The notes under the pieces: generated by a model
What the model saw: only the letters and a program-made list of their open reading frames with translations
The model's database searches: none
What the model was told of the DNA's origin: nothing
Made by a program: the position numbers and the translations under genes
Shown here: positions 39,666-52,179 of the stretch, in pieces
Position numbering within the stretch: the first letter of the stretch is position 1
Layout: every line of letters begins with the position of its first letter
Origin: Prolixibacteraceae bacterium
Lineage (GTDB): Bacteria > Bacteroidota > Bacteroidia > Bacteroidales > Prolixibacteraceae
Reading direction: 5' to 3'
DNA length: 64,000 nucleotides
Assembly: GCA_028377305.1 (NCBI GenBank)
Contig: JAONJW010000010.1
Span: forward strand, 1-64,000

Positions 39666-40014
39666 GAATATTATTTTTTTGAACCGTAATGGAAACCGTT
39701 TTAGAGAATCGTAGTGCACAAGGCTTCTCTATCTCTACCTCTACGCTGAAAACCCTTCTGTCTTCCAATATCAAGTTCGCGATATCATCAGTTAGCTTCT
39801 CTAAAAGAAGAAAACGACCATTCTCAACAAAGCTTATAATATGCTTTGTTATAGTTTTATAATTATAAATATTTGAAATATCATCCTCTGACATGGATGA
39901 ATCAAAAGGAACATCTATCTTAAGATGAATATAGACATCTTGCTTTTTCTCTTGTTCCCCATCATGAAAACCGATATAGGTTCTTAAATGAAGTTTCTTT
40001 ATACTTATTCGCAT
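39658..40014 (-). CDS. folB: Dihydroneopterin aldolase
   Basis: The 118-residue protein matches FolB: KLHLRTYIGFHDGEQEKKQDVYIHLKIDV contains the conserved glutamate at about residue 22 that holds the pterin, and FLLLEKLTDDIANLIL plus VEVEIEKPCALRFSKTVSITVQK form the C-terminal half. It makes 6-hydroxymethyl-dihydropterin, the direct substrate of FolK, whose gene overlaps its 3' end. The SDR gene lies 21 nt upstream in the same direction. Confidence 0.92.
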   Translation of the reverse strand: MRISIKKLHLRTYIGFHDGEQEKKQDVYIHLKIDVPFDSSMSEDDISNIYNYKTITKHIISFVENGRFLLLEKLTDDIANLILEDRRVFSVEVEIEKPCALRFSKTVSITVQKNNIHE

Positions 40015-40035
40015 CTAGTTTTATTTAGTTAGTGA

Positions 40036-40755
40036 TTACATTAAATGTTCTCCGCCATTACAGAACAAGGTTTGTCCAGTTGCCCATTCATTATTTATTA
40101 GAAACTCTAAAGAGGATAAAATCGATTTAACACCTGGTGCTACTCGTAATGGTGTGTCTAGAACACCTTGATGGAACATCTCAGCATTACCATGTTTTGA
40201 TGGGAGTATCATTCCTGGTAGAATCGCGTTAATTCGAAACTCAGGAGCAAAAGAGAGAGACATCATATAAGTTAACTCCAACAACGACTTCTTTGATAAG
40301 ATGTAAGACAAATAAGAACTCTTGTGTTTTTTCACTGCTTCATCCACAATCGTTATAACCTGTCCTTTAATCGCTTGAGAGCAAAACCACTTGGTTATTA
40401 ACAATGGTTGAAAAAGATGAATACTAAAGTGATCTTGTAAAGAATTATAGGAGATGGTCTTAAAATCATCAGGTTCAAACATCGAAGCATTGTGTATTAA
40501 TAGATTCACAATAACACACTGCTTCTCACAGAATACAGACAACTCGTCCACAAAAGTTGGACATCTCAAGTCGCCTTGAAAAACAAAAAATTGCAAATTA
40601 GAATAACTATCTTCTAACTCATTTTTTAATAATTCCACTCCATTTTGGTCGCTACAATAGTGTAATATTAAAGAGTAGCCCATAGAAGCTAATTTTAAAC
40701 TTATCTCCCTTCCAATTCGTTTACTACTACCTGTTACTAAAGCAAGCTTATGCAT
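40036..40755 (-). CDS. SDR pteridine-reductase-like protein, probable FolM-type
   Basis: The 239-residue short-chain dehydrogenase has TGSSKRIG (8-15), the TGxxxRxG form seen in pteridine reductase PTR1 and FolM rather than the classical TGxxxGxG. HNAS (88-91), YxxxK (Tyr151, Lys155) and the C-terminal RINAILPGMILP are in place. With folB and folK directly downstream, reduction of dihydropterin or dihydrofolate is the likely role; it may back up or replace a DHFR. No folA is visible in the window. A general SDR with another substrate remains possible. Confidence 0.82.
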   Translation of the reverse strand: MHKLALVTGSSKRIGREISLKLASMGYSLILHYCSDQNGVELLKNELEDSYSNLQFFVFQGDLRCPTFVDELSVFCEKQCVIVNLLIHNASMFEPDDFKTISYNSLQDHFSIHLFQPLLITKWFCSQAIKGQVITIVDEAVKKHKSSYLSYILSKKSLLELTYMMSLSFAPEFRINAILPGMILPSKHGNAEMFHQGVLDTPLRVAPGVKSILSSLEFLINNEWATGQTLFCNGGEHLM

Positions 40756-40870
40756 ATCAAATTGTCTTATGATTTCTCTTTTTTATTTATAAAACAATCA
40801 TCGAAATGCAAAAGTTCTTACCTAATGATATATTTCATGATTTACATAACTGAAAGCTATGATACTAAAT

Positions 40871-40914
40871 CTGTTATACAACAGTAATATCCTTATAAAT
40901 AACTAGTTATTTAT
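40871..40914. promoter_or_regulatory. Two palindromes in the folM-like/crp divergent region
   Basis: ATAAATAACTAGTTATTTAT (40895-40914) is a perfect 20-bp palindrome, and CTGTT-N4-AACAG (40871-40884) is a second dyad just before it. They lie 79-122 nt before the Crp/Fnr gene and 116-160 nt before the divergent folate operon. An operator for the adjacent regulator, acting on itself or both units, is the simplest reading. Confidence 0.55.
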
Positions 40915-40992
40915 CCATTTTCCCCCTTTTTTTCTCCAACCTTTTATTATACTTTTACATTAAACGAGTGATCCAATAAACGAATACTTACT

Positions 40993-41691
40993 ATGAAGAA
41001 TTATATTCACCCCCTCCAAGAAGAGTATGATTTATCGACTTTTAATTTCTTTAAATCTCTTACACCTGATGAATTAAAGACATTGGATGGTCAAATTTCT
41101 GCTAGCCAATATAAAAAAGGCGATGTAATTTATCATGAAGGGAAACGCCTAACAGGCTTCTATTGTATTATGAGCGGAGTGCTCAAAGTAATCAAAACGG
41201 GTAGTGATGGTAAAGAGCAAATTATTCGCTTTGTTACCAAAGGCGATATTATTGCATATCGTTCTCTTTTAAGTAAAGAAGGCGCGTGCACTACTGCCAA
41301 GGTAATTGAACAAGCTGTTCTAGTTCACGTACCATATAACACACTAACTTCGATTCTTTCATCCAATCACAAGTTCACTCTAAACACACTCCAAGTGGTT
41401 TGTAAAGAGCTTAAAGATGCAAACAACTACATTACCGACATCGCACACAAAACGGTTCGAGAAAGAGTCGCTGAAGTTCTCATTATGCTTCGTGATAAGT
41501 TTGGTGTGAATAAAGATAATGTATTGCAAGTATCGCTTACAAGGGAAGAGATTGCCAATATGGTTGGAACTGCAACAGAATCTGTAATTCGATTACTTTC
41601 TGAATTTAAACACGACAAGATTATTGAAATCAAAGGCCGTGAAATTAAATTCGTAAACCTCCCTAGATTAACACGAATAGCTAATATGTGA
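40993..41691 (+). CDS. Crp/Fnr-family transcriptional regulator
   Basis: The 232-residue protein has the cyclic-nucleotide-binding fold (about 20-135, KKGDVIYHEGKRLTGFYCIMSGVLKV and EQIIRFVTKGDIIAYRSLL) and a C-terminal Crp winged helix (about 160-225) with VSLTREEIANMVGTATESVIRLLSEFK as the recognition unit. The four N-terminal iron-sulfur cysteines of Fnr are absent, so it is not an Fnr-type oxygen sensor; a cAMP-binding RxS motif is also not evident. It is monocistronic with its own terminator and a palindromic upstream region. Confidence 0.9.
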   Translation: MKNYIHPLQEEYDLSTFNFFKSLTPDELKTLDGQISASQYKKGDVIYHEGKRLTGFYCIMSGVLKVIKTGSDGKEQIIRFVTKGDIIAYRSLLSKEGACTTAKVIEQAVLVHVPYNTLTSILSSNHKFTLNTLQVVCKELKDANNYITDIAHKTVRERVAEVLIMLRDKFGVNKDNVLQVSLTREEIANMVGTATESVIRLLSEFKHDKIIEIKGREIKFVNLPRLTRIANM

Positions 41692-41723
41692 TTAATTCAC
41701 CTATACCCCAAAATAAACCTAAG

Positions 41724-41757
41724 AAAGGGCTTACAATCAACACTGTAAGCCCTTTTA
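41724..41757 (+). terminator. Terminator of the Crp/Fnr gene
   Basis: AAAGGGCTTACA (41724-41735) and TGTAAGCCCTTT (41744-41755) form a perfect 12-bp stem with an 8-nt loop and a short T tail. Confidence 0.88.
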
Positions 41758-42241
41758 TATATCACATCTATCACGATAATGTAACCATATATAAAACATA
41801 ACCACTAAAACAATTACAAATCATCTTCCATTTCAACCAATCACTATTTTATACACACTAATCACAGCCTTTCTCAATGAATAAAAGATATAATCATTAT
41901 ATAAACATATTATTATCTAAAATAACTATAAACCATTATGCATTCCAAACAATCACGACGACTACATCAAGAAAGACTACAATCAAGTTTATCCCCACCA
42001 CTCCCTATCCATCAAATGATAGAAGTTAGATGTAGCACCTTCATTTTTAATCTCACAACATTTTCACTCTCCATGACAAAAATAGACATTCTCATCATAC
42101 CCCTAACCGCCAAAAAAAACGATTGATTGACACTCTTTAGATAATGTGCACACCCATACAATCGTAATTCGTAAACAACACCAATCCACTATACACACCT
42201 ATCTTTTACACCCAGACGGACAGTTTAAAAGTAACACAGAT

Positions 42242-42391
42242 AGAGTTTAATTTACACTACCCTGTTAGATTACCTCCGTTGCGGATCTGATCTAAAGCCT
42301 TAACTCTTACTTCTTCTAAATCAACTCTTTTCATATATCCTAAATTTAAGAAAATCTAGACAGAGTTAATTTTACACCGTCTTACACCGTC
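42242..42391 (-). mobile_element. IS256-like element scar: end sequences and transposase N-terminal fragment
   Basis: On the minus strand, ATG at 42334 opens 25 codons (MKRVDLEEVRVKALDQIRNG, then GNLTG and a stop at about 42257) resembling the N-terminus of IS256-family transposases, which usually read LKxKALEQLRxGxSLTGKDG. Just upstream on that strand lies AACTCTGT preceded by two tandem copies of a 10-bp TTACACCGTC unit (42372-42391), like an IS end. A similar end-like sequence AGAGTTTAATTTACACTACC (42242-42261) is 15/20 identical to AGAGTTAATTTTACACCGTC (42362-42381) and lies in the same orientation. The rest of the transposase is gone. The family assignment is from memory. Confidence 0.55.
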
Positions 42392-42408
42392 ATTAACAAT
42401 ACATAAAT

Positions 42409-42680
42409 ACCCCTATCATAAACACCTTCCCCTACTTTAGCAAGTACTTAACAGCCACCTAATCCGTACAAAATCCGTCTCTAATCCGTCCCTAATCTGT
42501 ACTTTCTTCATGGTTATCACATCTTTCCTTCATGGTTCCTCCATCGATTATTCATTTTGGATGGAGGAACCATGAAGGAAGGATGGCTGATTCTTGGTTA
42601 AGAGACGGATTAGGGACGGATTAGGGATAGATTAGGGACGGATTAAGTGCTTACTAGGTCAGGGTTGAATAGGGGTTTAG
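42409..42680. repeat. Large symmetric dyad built from 11-bp repeats around a 24-bp hairpin
   Basis: Four 11-bp units of type CCCTAATCCGT (42457-42500) are mirrored by four inverted units of type ACGGATTAGGG (42605-42648). Midway, 42525-42544 pairs perfectly with 42561-42580 (20 bp, core GGTTCCTCCAT), growing to 24 bp with one G-T pair, around a 16-nt loop. Both layers share one centre at 42552.5. Weaker pairing (for example ACCCCTAT near 42410 and ATAGGGGT near 42675) extends it to about 270 bp. TTCATGGTT is also directly repeated (42507, 42529). No coding frame crosses it. Role unknown; a MITE, an architectural site or a structured RNA are options. Confidence 0.75.
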
Positions 42681-42736
42681 GGTGTGAGAATATAGAATCA
42701 GATAGAGAACGGATACTTGAAATAAGAAGAGAGTAA

Positions 42737-42910
42737 AAAAATAGGGATCGTTCTAATCAAATTATTGAGACACTTGCACGGAAGTCAATAACAAGACCAG
42801 TAACACTTAATATCAAACACTTACAACAGTTATCAACATGTTTAAATCAGCATCTAAAGAGGTTTATGAATCTTTATACAAAACAGATTGCTCTCAAATC
42901 AATCGTTTAG
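42737..42910 (+). pseudogene. Open frame without a start, possible gene remnant
   Basis: A stop-free frame of about 57 codons runs to TAG at 42908 and reads like a protein fragment (for example NQIIETLARKSITRPVTL), but has no usable start codon at its 5' side and no recognised family. It lies between the dyad and the PiT terminator, next to IS debris, so it may be the tail of a deleted gene. In an AT-rich window the length could also be chance. Confidence 0.2.
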
Positions 42911-42987
42911 AATGGAGGGTAATAAGATAGTGGTATAGGGTCAAGAATTGCCTGAGAATAAACATTAGTTTCTAGGATTTAGTGGCA

Positions 42988-43032
42988 AAGAGATAAAAAT
43001 AAAGAGAGTCCATCATGATGAACTCTCTTTAT
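42988..43032 (-). terminator. Terminator of the PiT transporter gene
   Basis: ATAAAGAGAGT (42999-43009) and ACTCTCTTTAT (43022-43032) form an 11-bp stem. On the minus strand the stem is followed by a T-rich tail, and it lies about 50 nt after the transporter stop codon. Confidence 0.85.
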
Positions 43033-43083
43033 CGTATTTAATCATTAATCGATTTCAATGATTGCAGTAGGCAAGCTGCTATC

Positions 43084-45318
43084 TTATATCGATTTCTTTG
43101 AATATCGAACAAAGTCTCTATATGATTTAGCGACATTGACTGAGTGGAAGAGTAGGTTCTTAGACTCAGAAAGGACATTAAAGAAAAGTACGGAATTACG
43201 AGTGTTAACTTCTTTACCTTTAATTCTTCGGATCTGAAGTTTTTCAAGTTCAGCCATGAATAAGGTGATTTGATCTCTCTCGTTGATAAGTTCGTCAATC
43301 TTGTCGAAACGTTCTTCCTTAACAATATGAATTACTGAGTTATAGAAGTCGTTTACTTTATTAACAAGTTGGTTGAGTTCTTCTGCTTGGACATCCACAA
43401 ATGGTCTGTGGTTATTGCTGATGTGTTCATACAGAGGAGTGATAATATAGTTTAATGAGTGAGACAACTCTCTAAGGTAGTCGACAATCTGAACGTAATA
43501 GTGACCAGTCTCTACAGAATCTGCTTGAAGCCTTATTACCACGCTATTTACATTGTTTTTCCACTTCTTCGTTTTCTTGCTTAAGTAGTCAACCTCTTCT
43601 AATATCTCTTTAATGTTTTTACGATCTTCCTTCAAGAAGCTTTCAATTGCAACAAGGTAGCCTTTTGTAGCAATCAAAATGGAATTGGTTACCCTCTGCT
43701 TACTCTTCTCTAAAACTTTGGTTGTTTGTAACACCTCTTCGGTAAACTCTTCTTCTTCTTCGTTTTTAACTTCGTCTTTCTTTTTAAAAGTAGATTTAAA
43801 TACCAGGAATAAAGCCAATGCTAAGAAGACGAACACTGTTGCATCACCAACAAGACTAATGGTAGCTCCAATGAACGCAGCACTAGAGAATGCAACAATA
43901 GCTGTCATAAACCAACCTCCGACCACTGTAAACACACCAGAGATACGATAAACGGCAGACTCTCTATCCCATGCTTTATCAGAAAGAGAAGTACCCATGG
44001 CAACCATGAAGGTTACATAAGTGGTTGAAAGAGGTAGTTTATATGAGGTACCAATAGAGATCAATATACTTGCAACCACAAGGTTTACAGAAGCACGAAT
44101 AAGATCAAATGCCGTATCATCATCTGTTTTTTCAGGCTTCTTAAAACGTTTACTCACGCGATTTTTAACCCCTTCAGCGATAATTGCACCAAATCTTTGG
44201 GATACAGATATGGATGATCTAACAATTGCTCTAGAGACAGAAGAAGATTCAAAACGCTCTTCTGATTCGCCTTGATTAGATAGGTTTAGTGATGTTGCGA
44301 TAACCTTCTTTGCTTTTTTGGAGGTGATCAACGTTACGATCATAATAATACCTGCAATCAAAAGCATGTAGGTTTCTGTCTTAACAGGCTCTGTAAGAAT
44401 TTCCATGCTCATTGCATCTGGAGCCATTCCAGAAGCTTTCCAAGCATTGAATGATTCAAAACCAGCCAATGGAACACCAATAAAGTTCACGAGGTCATTC
44501 CCTGCGAATGCCATCGCCAACGCAAATGTACCAATCATTACTACCACTTTCAGAATGTTTACTTTTCTGAAAATCATTGAGATTACTTGGAGTAGTATTG
44601 TACAAGAGACAAAACAAATAGCAATGATTGAAGTCGTATGTGTTTTAATATATGTTATTTGCTCAGGAGCAATCCATGAAGCTCCTTTAGCACCTTTAAT
44701 CAAAATAAAGTATGTGATAAAAGCCAAACATAGTCCACCGAAGATAGAACCATAGTATTTGATTTTTTTATCAAATTTAAATGTAAAGATCAGTCGGGTA
44801 ATCCACTGTACTAATGCACCAATAGAGAAGGCTATAACCACAGAGAAGAGTATTCCAAATATAATGGCCAACGCTTTATCGGTATTGATATATTGGTGAA
44901 TATCAGCTATGGATTGATTTAGGTTTGAAATCTTTACTAATGCGACTGCAACCGAAGAACCTAACAATTCGAATACAATTGATACGGTTGTGGATGTCGG
45001 AAGTCCCAATGAGTTAAAGAGATCAAGGAGAATAATGTCCGTGATCATTACGGTTACAAATATGATCATTATCTCGTTGAACATGAACATATTCGGAATC
45101 ATAATACCTTTTCGTGCAACCTCCATCATACCACTAGAGAATGTGGCTCCAACAAGGATACCTAAACTAGCAACGGTGAAAATGACCCACTTTGGTGCAG
45201 CCTTTGATCCAATAGCTGAATTTAAGAAGTTTACTGCATCATTACTAACCCCTACGATGAGATCAGAAATTGCTAATGCAAACAGTATAACTACTAGCGT
45301 TAAATAAAACGTTTCCAT
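43084..45318 (-). CDS. PiT-family inorganic phosphate transporter with C-terminal PhoU-like domain
   Basis: The 744-residue protein has about 10-12 membrane segments and the two PHO4 repeats: ISDLIVGVSNDAVNFLNSAIGS near the N-terminus and FALAMAFAGNDLVNFIGVPLAG in the middle, the GxNDxxN signature of phosphate:cation symporters. After about residue 500 the membrane part ends; a charged linker leads to a helical PhoU/DUF47-like domain (about 540-735). PiT proteins and PhoU-like partners are usually separate, and the fusion probably couples uptake to control. It is divergent from a PhoR/PhoB-like pair, which fits phosphate homeostasis. Confidence 0.9.
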   Translation of the reverse strand: METFYLTLVVILFALAISDLIVGVSNDAVNFLNSAIGSKAAPKWVIFTVASLGILVGATFSSGMMEVARKGIMIPNMFMFNEIMIIFVTVMITDIILLDLFNSLGLPTSTTVSIVFELLGSSVAVALVKISNLNQSIADIHQYINTDKALAIIFGILFSVVIAFSIGALVQWITRLIFTFKFDKKIKYYGSIFGGLCLAFITYFILIKGAKGASWIAPEQITYIKTHTTSIIAICFVSCTILLQVISMIFRKVNILKVVVMIGTFALAMAFAGNDLVNFIGVPLAGFESFNAWKASGMAPDAMSMEILTEPVKTETYMLLIAGIIMIVTLITSKKAKKVIATSLNLSNQGESEERFESSSVSRAIVRSSISVSQRFGAIIAEGVKNRVSKRFKKPEKTDDDTAFDLIRASVNLVVASILISIGTSYKLPLSTTYVTFMVAMGTSLSDKAWDRESAVYRISGVFTVVGGWFMTAIVAFSSAAFIGATISLVGDATVFVFLALALFLVFKSTFKKKDEVKNEEEEEFTEEVLQTTKVLEKSKQRVTNSILIATKGYLVAIESFLKEDRKNIKEILEEVDYLSKKTKKWKNNVNSVVIRLQADSVETGHYYVQIVDYLRELSHSLNYIITPLYEHISNNHRPFVDVQAEELNQLVNKVNDFYNSVIHIVKEERFDKIDELINERDQITLFMAELEKLQIRRIKGKEVNTRNSVLFFNVLSESKNLLFHSVNVAKSYRDFVRYSKKSI

Positions 45319-51628: not shown

Positions 51629-52179
51629 GTGGTTATTGATTTAACTAGTGAATTTTTCCACAAGAAGTTATTCATCGTTTTTCCCCACTATTAATATTAT
51701 ATCATTACAATTAGTTTTCTTTTTAATAGAATGAATAAATGAAATATAATATAATAATAATAGGCTGTTGATGCAGTGTAAAAAAATATCATTCTTGATT
51801 TTGAATTTACAAGATCAACGCTTAATTAACAATTAGCACCTAGTTTATACACATTGTAAGTATTTGGTAATGAGTGAAAATCCAAATGTAACCGACAGTG
51901 TTCCTGAAAGGTTATGAATAGTTGTTAGTGTAGGTTTTAGGACAAATTATATGTGTGTTTTAGGTTAGATTAATGTCATTAAATTACGATGTAATAAAAC
52001 TATCGATTTGAGATTTTAACCTAACCAAATAAAATATCGTTTTTTTGTAATCACTTTTCCCCATGCTATTCACTAGTTATTTCACAAGTTTATAACAACG
52101 GTTGTTGACTTTTTTGATTAATTCACTAATTGGTAAACGATTATTACCTTATAATTAAGATTGTTTTATCTCTTTTTAT
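51629..52179. other. Long ruvB-rpiB divergent interval
   Basis: About 550 nt between divergent genes contain no supported protein gene. An 8-bp inverted repeat TTAGGTTA (51960-51967) / TAACCTAA (52017-52024) encloses 49 nt. The remainder is AT-rich without an obvious terminator. A small RNA or long leader could be here but was not recognised. Confidence 0.35.

Follow-up and report, generated by a model that had tools for sequence, protein, structure and literature searches.

What kind of element is the large dyad centered on position 42552.5 of the window, the whole 64,000-nucleotide stretch of Prolixibacteraceae DNA analyzed here, and does it stand alone? An earlier note had described two mirrored arrays of 11-bp units around a central stem and had considered a MITE, an integration site, a chromosome-organization site, or a structured RNA. 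The described architecture holds. The left array comprises four 11-bp units of the ACCTAATCCGT type (42457-42500, forward strand; the same unit and register occur in other copies in this genome), and the right array comprises four inverted units (42605-42648, reverse strand) that read as the ACGGATTAGGG type on the forward strand. Taken as 42456-42500 and 42605-42649, the array arms are 82% complementary. The central stem is a core (42520-42585, forward strand) whose 26-nt arms, 42520-42545 and 42560-42585, are 96% complementary and enclose a 14-nt loop; both array arms and the core stem are centered on 42552.5. An inner spacer (42501-42519, forward strand) carries TTCATGGTT at 42508-42516, which is repeated directly at 42530-42538, as had been reported. 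The 11-bp period runs on outwards as weaker units, placed on the right side at 42649-42690 (forward strand) by eye and by 11-bp autocorrelation over the copies of this genome. Folded as DNA, 42400-42700 reached –67.3 kcal/mol compared to –28.0 (SD 3.6) in shuffled sequences (z –11.0, with 0 of 100 shuffles as good), indicating an exact structure.

The setting is also as first described. The gap that holds the dyad (41692-43083) is, at 1392 bp, the longest between called genes in the window, the next longest being 1063 bp. To its left lies a Crp-type regulator gene (40993-41691, forward strand) and to its right a phosphate transporter (PHO4) gene (43084-45318, reverse strand), and each has a terminator-like hairpin of its own outside the dyad: an inverted repeat with a T-rich stretch behind it for the left gene (41724-41755, forward strand) and an inverted repeat for the right gene (42999-43032, reverse strand). 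The neighbouring insertion-sequence debris resolves into two IS256-type end fragments (42226-42382, reverse strand), both with their tips towards the dyad. Compared with a broken element of this genome, the fragments agree at 98% over 122 bases and at 94% over 36 bases; against an intact element of a relative, the figures are 89% and 92%. Across 41700-43000 we additionally observed a G-over-C skew pointing outwards on both sides of the dyad. An origin of replication at this position, hinted at by the skew switch, was rejected because copies of the dyad are many.

The window copy is not unique. A search of its own genome (G000, a draft 77% complete) returned this copy and 20 further places at E < 0.001, with alignment restricted to the dyad. 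Pattern and model searches together gave at least 29 loci in G000, of which 29 of 29 were confirmed by the model; for two other loci, L062 and L196, the model check did not confirm a dyad. Three more genomes of the genus are available, and all have the dyad: 39 copies in G001 and 38 in G003, both complete chromosomes, and at least 62 in G002, a draft 99% complete in which a few may be missing. The model searches scored 150 candidates per genome; the counts for G000 and G002, which gave at least 66 and at least 130 two-strand matches, are lower bounds. The assumed centers of L232 and L233 are 20-32 bp off, with little effect on the counts. Searched by sequence, which arrays with other units would escape, the dyad was found in 4 of 140 Prolixibacteraceae genomes and 1 of 23 genera. 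A pattern scan of an 84,980-species collection gave 65 stretches, 59 of them in Prolixibacteraceae bacterium McBI.27 (which is G002), two in Marinifilaceae McD1.32, and one in Vallitalea McD1.14. The dyad contigs in the latter two (L084, L086, and L119) are binned with MAGs that have similar isolate names and are perhaps misbinned; three isolated matches in unrelated MAGs were taken as chance and left out. A search of 72,556 plasmid records gave no match, and viral contigs gave none to the dyad pattern. We conclude that the dyad is a member of a dispersed, genus-specific family. The earlier note had staked its proposal on copies in the host and related genomes and on conserved symmetric pairing: copies are present and conserved in all four genomes, and the core and unit array are kept, but strict pairing is not.

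To compare the copies, we aligned 44 of them from the four genomes (the window core with 43 others), picked by the common core CATGGTT..TCCATCGATT. Loop sequences vary by species. Many copies in G000 and G003 have outer units of the ATCCGTCCCTA type, exact ones being present on both sides in 19 of the 29 G000 copies and in 17 of the 38 G003 copies; the units of G001 and G002 are of the CCATGGTTTGT type, which also occurs in some G000 and G003 copies. Autocorrelation over copies showed a strong 11-bp period to ~150 bp from the center in G000 and G003, and one that is strong within 60 bp and weak farther out in G001 and G002. Intervals between exact units were 11, 22, 33, 44, or 110 bp, all multiples of 11 (99 of 99 in G000 and 32 of 32 in G003). 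The spacer across the core kept one phase in 18 of the 19 measurable G000 copies and all 17 measurable G003 copies, and the distance between the innermost exact units was 104 bp in 17 of the 19 G000 copies. For G002, the distance across the core was 41 (51 cases) or 40 (seven cases). Such a register is what an array facing one side of the helix would require, although tandem duplication of units would preserve it too.

Is the pairing itself what is maintained? A hairpin or cruciform acting as an RNA structure, a terminator, or an attenuator would account for the highly stable fold (z –11), and arms within a copy were more alike than arms of different copies, beyond chance, in G000 (0.675 versus 0.595) and G003 (0.705 versus 0.659), with a weak pairing signal in the inner units of G000 (P 0.011). 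In G001 and G002, however, arms were less alike within a copy than between copies, which suggests correction between arms, or weak selection for pairing, in G000 and G003 only. Covariation among the aligned copies was almost nil (a term of –0.17 of –9.48 kcal/mol), the same mismatch is kept in 50 of 59 G002 copies, and Rfam returned no match at gathering score across 40000-44000; the sub-threshold matches were mostly to microRNA precursors, and an RNA family was rejected. The Rfam search, the covariation, and the conserved mismatch give no support to the structured RNA of the earlier note. Termination fares no better: both genes flanking the window copy come with a terminator-like hairpin each, and convergent genes are not in excess at dyads. 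With genes called by a simple codon-based script, the 154 detections were all intergenic except one weak in-gene match with three mismatches (L183), which was then dropped. Of these, 130 had a called gene on both sides, in convergent (24), tandem (61), or divergent (45) orientation, a count that excludes twelve loci added later; background gaps of at least 100 bp divided into 87, 288, and 150. Dyad gaps thus have no orientation bias, and on the convergent counts (24 of 130 versus 87 of 525) we rejected a bidirectional terminator between convergent genes. We consider it very improbable that the family acts through RNA structure or termination.

Dyad gaps are long, with medians of 804-1237 bp, whereas background gaps of 100 bp or more have medians of 238-302 bp, and the copies keep apart along the chromosome. 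We compared spacings with uniform placement on the chromosome, a null that treats genic and intergenic positions alike. For the 39 sites of G001, the coefficient of variation (CV) of the spacing was 0.432 versus 0.964 expected (0 of 100,000 simulations) and the ratio of adjacent spacings was 0.637 versus 0.386 (0 of 20,000 simulations). For the 38 sites of G003, the smallest spacing was 27.6 kb (P 0.0003) and the adjacent ratio 0.574 (P 0.0004); the overall CV of 0.80 was not below random (P 0.10), since one part of the chromosome is more densely populated with copies. Among the 62 tabulated G002 sites, the smallest spacing within a contig was 15.9 kb (0 of 20,000 simulations), and the adjacent ratio again departed from the null (P 0.002). 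The control, a 945-bp repeat of G003 that looks mobile and occurs as 21 copies or large fragments, was placed at random (CV 0.87, P 0.39; ratio P 0.51). A second, weaker class of G003 dyads was random-like in smallest spacing and CV, with a raised adjacent ratio (P 0.008). The 945-bp repeat (L218:250-1200 and 20 further places, near-full copies being 87-89% identical to the query) itself contains two dyad-like hairpins built from 11-bp units other than those of the main family, of the AAGTTCATTCG and GATACTTCATT types. Hairpins of these types also occur singly, and three of them sit 330-364 bp, center to center, from a dyad of the main family.

A link to replication is another candidate role, with sites that titrate the initiator, cause pausing, or act in segregation close to the origin, and G003 gives some indication of this. 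Its dyads crowd together around the skew-inferred origin (2.65-3.9 Mb; rho 0.46 between spacing and distance, P 0.0035), with 26 of 38 oriented in its direction (P 0.034). On average, G exceeds C on the outward-reading strand over several hundred bases to either side of the dyad in G000 and G003, a feature absent from 112 dyad-free gaps. Against this, G001 and G002 show the skew weakly or not at all, G001 has neither a density gradient towards its skew-inferred origin nor an orientation bias (19 of 39), so that we make no claim for orientation towards the origin, and all origin and terminus positions were placed from sampled skew only. We therefore give a replication-linked role little credence.

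We next considered whether the sites are shared between species, counting a site as shared when dyads adjoin the same side of the same gene. By this measure, G000 and G003 have 11 locus pairs in common, G000 and G002 five, and G002 and G003 three; G001 shared two with G002 and one each with G000 and G003. One site is common to all four species, and the majority are not common between species. Adjacent genes were in excess over the next ones for G000-G002 and G000-G003, and pairs with G001 showed no excess at the adjacent gene. The window site is among those shared: G002 has a dyad between the same two genes, both flanking genes agreeing. The sequence of a shared site nevertheless tends to follow the species. 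For all five G000-G002 pairs and all three G002-G003 pairs, own-species copies were on average much more alike and the orthologue did not rank first; for the window copy, the G002 orthologue ranked 46 of 59, with a mean score of 86 for own-species copies against the orthologue's 38. The G000-G003 pairs do not agree among themselves: mean likeness was higher within the species than to the other species in 5 of 11 pairs, and two orthologues (of L046 and L031) ranked first. L046, on G000 contig C79, is 98.8% identical to L186 of G003 over 2.5 kb, compared to a median identity of 86% for the reciprocal best proteins of the two genomes, and this near-identity probably reflects either recent transfer or contamination of the draft. 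Thus, sequence follows species clearly for G002 and in a mixed manner between G000 and G003. Sites are also gained or lost. Of six comparisons of orthologous gaps, two had no dyad on either side and were left out; in the four that set a dyad gap against a dyad-free one, the dyad gap was 417-853 bp longer. One of these is in the window, where gap 51676-52160 has no detected dyad and its G002 counterpart (L128) has a dyad and is 853 bp longer. This empty-site alignment, the one inspected closely, shows no evident target duplication.

The debris beside the window dyad proved to be part of a pattern. In G000 and G003 together, IS256-type ends (at most two mismatches) lay within 400 bp of 28 of 67 dyads, and 30 of 35 ends pointed their tip at the dyad, with 97-319 bp separating them from the dyad center (P 2e-5, treating ends as independent though some dyads have several). 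Regions with an IS end were more frequent at dyads than in dyad-free gaps in both G003 (9 of 60 versus 1 of 119, P 0.0003) and G000 (9 of 39 versus 0 of 24, P 0.01). One intact IS256-type copy was found, in G003; it has a Transposase_mut gene and inverted ends, stops ~90 bp from a dyad center, and is bordered by an apparent 8-bp target duplication, read by eye. Transposase_mut is absent from G001 and G002, and therefore the IS256-type element cannot be spreading dyads there. We conclude that this element inserts beside dyads, mostly in one polarity, in two of the four species; the earlier suggestion of an integration site is thus borne out in part.

Could the dyads themselves be the mobile entity? 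The main alternative is a selfish REP- or MITE-like repeat that is mobilized in trans and returns to the same permissive gaps, its even spacing arising from target immunity or from purging of close copies. The family is dispersed and intergenic with species-specific variants, is gained or lost between species with longer gaps where a dyad is present, and has a second dyad family inside the mobile-looking 945-bp repeat. In G002 (L067-L131), two shared tails, of the AAGTACCTTT type and the AACCC..TAT type, adjoin the unit arrays on their outer side, and 100 of 118 arms have one or the other; the copies listed usually carry one of each, on opposite sides. Tails are less clear in G001. The two tails are, however, of different kinds and not inverted copies of each other. 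Direct repeats of at least 7 bp between left and right flanks showed no clear excess within single copies over pairings of different copies (14 of 58 versus 28 of 172 in G002; 2 of 31 versus 18 of 92 in G001), and farther than 160 bp out the G002 flanks are unique, with repeats in 0 of 84 regions. Of the two transposase families tested, neither is common to the four genomes: Transposase_mut is missing as described above, and Y1_Tnp (PF01797) is present in G001 and G003 and was not found in G000 (77% complete) or in G002, which has the most copies. Immunity would, moreover, have to reach across 16-28 kb. A selfish repeat with a spacing rule thus explains the dispersal, the turnover, and the G002 tails, but target duplications and, among the two families tested, a common transposase are missing. 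For the MITE of the earlier note, the shared tails speak in favor, and their two kinds, the lack of flanking-repeat excess, and the transposase distribution speak against. We regard a selfish origin as a genuine but doubtful possibility.

A bound protein with a chromosome-wide role best accounts for the even spacing, the register, the shared positions, and the species-specific sequence taken together. We propose, with a probability of a little under one half (roughly 0.46), that the dyad family is a repeated docking site for a putative DNA-binding protein that organizes the chromosome; intergenic position and lack of orientation bias fit this proposal. Each site would present a palindromic core flanked by inverted arrays of 11-bp units. 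Because a unit is about one helical turn, a protein on successive units would sit on one face of the DNA, and it could then oligomerize outwards in both directions from the core. With an array every 60-140 kb, such nucleoprotein hubs might organize the chromosome, tether it, or segregate it, broadly as centromere-like sites (parC/ParR, parS/ParB) or nucleoid-domain sites (MatS/MatP, Noc sites) do. Some sites persist by the same gene while their sequence follows the species, perhaps through gene conversion or a changing protein specificity, and the IS256-type element may use the hubs as landing pads in two species. Protein binding, oligomerization, and the organizing function are what we infer here; among the readings of the earlier note, a chromosome-organization site is the best supported, by even spacing, helical register, and partly conserved positions. 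Several observations count against the docking-site proposal: the unremarkable overall CV of G003 (0.80, P 0.10) and a density rise near the skew-inferred origin that is not seen in G001; the unshared majority of sites and the lack of adjacent-gene excess in G001 pairs; own-species likeness that is higher in only 5 of 11 G000-G003 pairs; the shared tails of G002 arms, as a mobile element might have; the likeness of arms within G000 and G003 copies; and a register that tandem duplication would also keep, with a G002 core distance of 41 or 40. More tentatively still, the family could represent a previously undescribed class of chromosomal centromere-like element, in which dozens of evenly spaced, satellite-like arrays of 11-bp iterons per chromosome keep their places while their sequence changes between species, and a putative oligomerizing protein sets domains of ~60-140 kb.

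Dispersed palindromes in bacteria are usually viewed as scattered, possibly selfish repeats. A limited literature search returned no paper on evenly spaced palindromic repeats and none joining Prolixibacteraceae with palindromic repeats. The nearest repeat in a related bacteroidote that we compared is from Porphyromonas gingivalis. There, BrickBuilt is a minisatellite-MITE with 19 intergenic copies, 23-nt direct units, a leader, a tail, and small inverted ends (PMC4596501). The dyads resemble BrickBuilt in being intergenic and built from short tandem units, but differ in their 11-bp units, their two inverted arrays around a core, and their even spacing. REP/BIME palindromic repeats are targets of insertion sequences, and one of the elements listed is of IS256 type (ISRm5, 5 of 7) (PMC1525189). 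The dyads are likewise dispersed, intergenic, palindromic, and targeted by insertion sequences, but they are longer arrays of 11-bp units in one register, evenly spaced and partly conserved in position. REP elements of the type mobilized by RAYT are not supported as a model, Y1_Tnp (the RAYT domain) not having been found in two of the four dyad genomes. A further comparison is with parC of the ParMRC partition systems, which in plasmid R1 consists of 11-bp repeats bound by an oligomerizing protein. Like parC, the dyad has arrays of ~11-bp repeats in helical register; unlike parC, its arrays are inverted around a core, and each genome yielded 29-62 copies. MatS/MatP, Noc-binding sites, and chromosomal parS are many dispersed, single short palindromes with a role in organizing the chromosome. 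The dyads are similarly many and dispersed, with a role that would be comparable, but they are arrays of units and not single short palindromes. The combination of even spacing, helical register, and partly held places with a sequence that follows the species resembles a bacterial counterpart of centromeric satellite evolution, and the dyad family would offer a direct handle on the organization of a bacteroidote chromosome.
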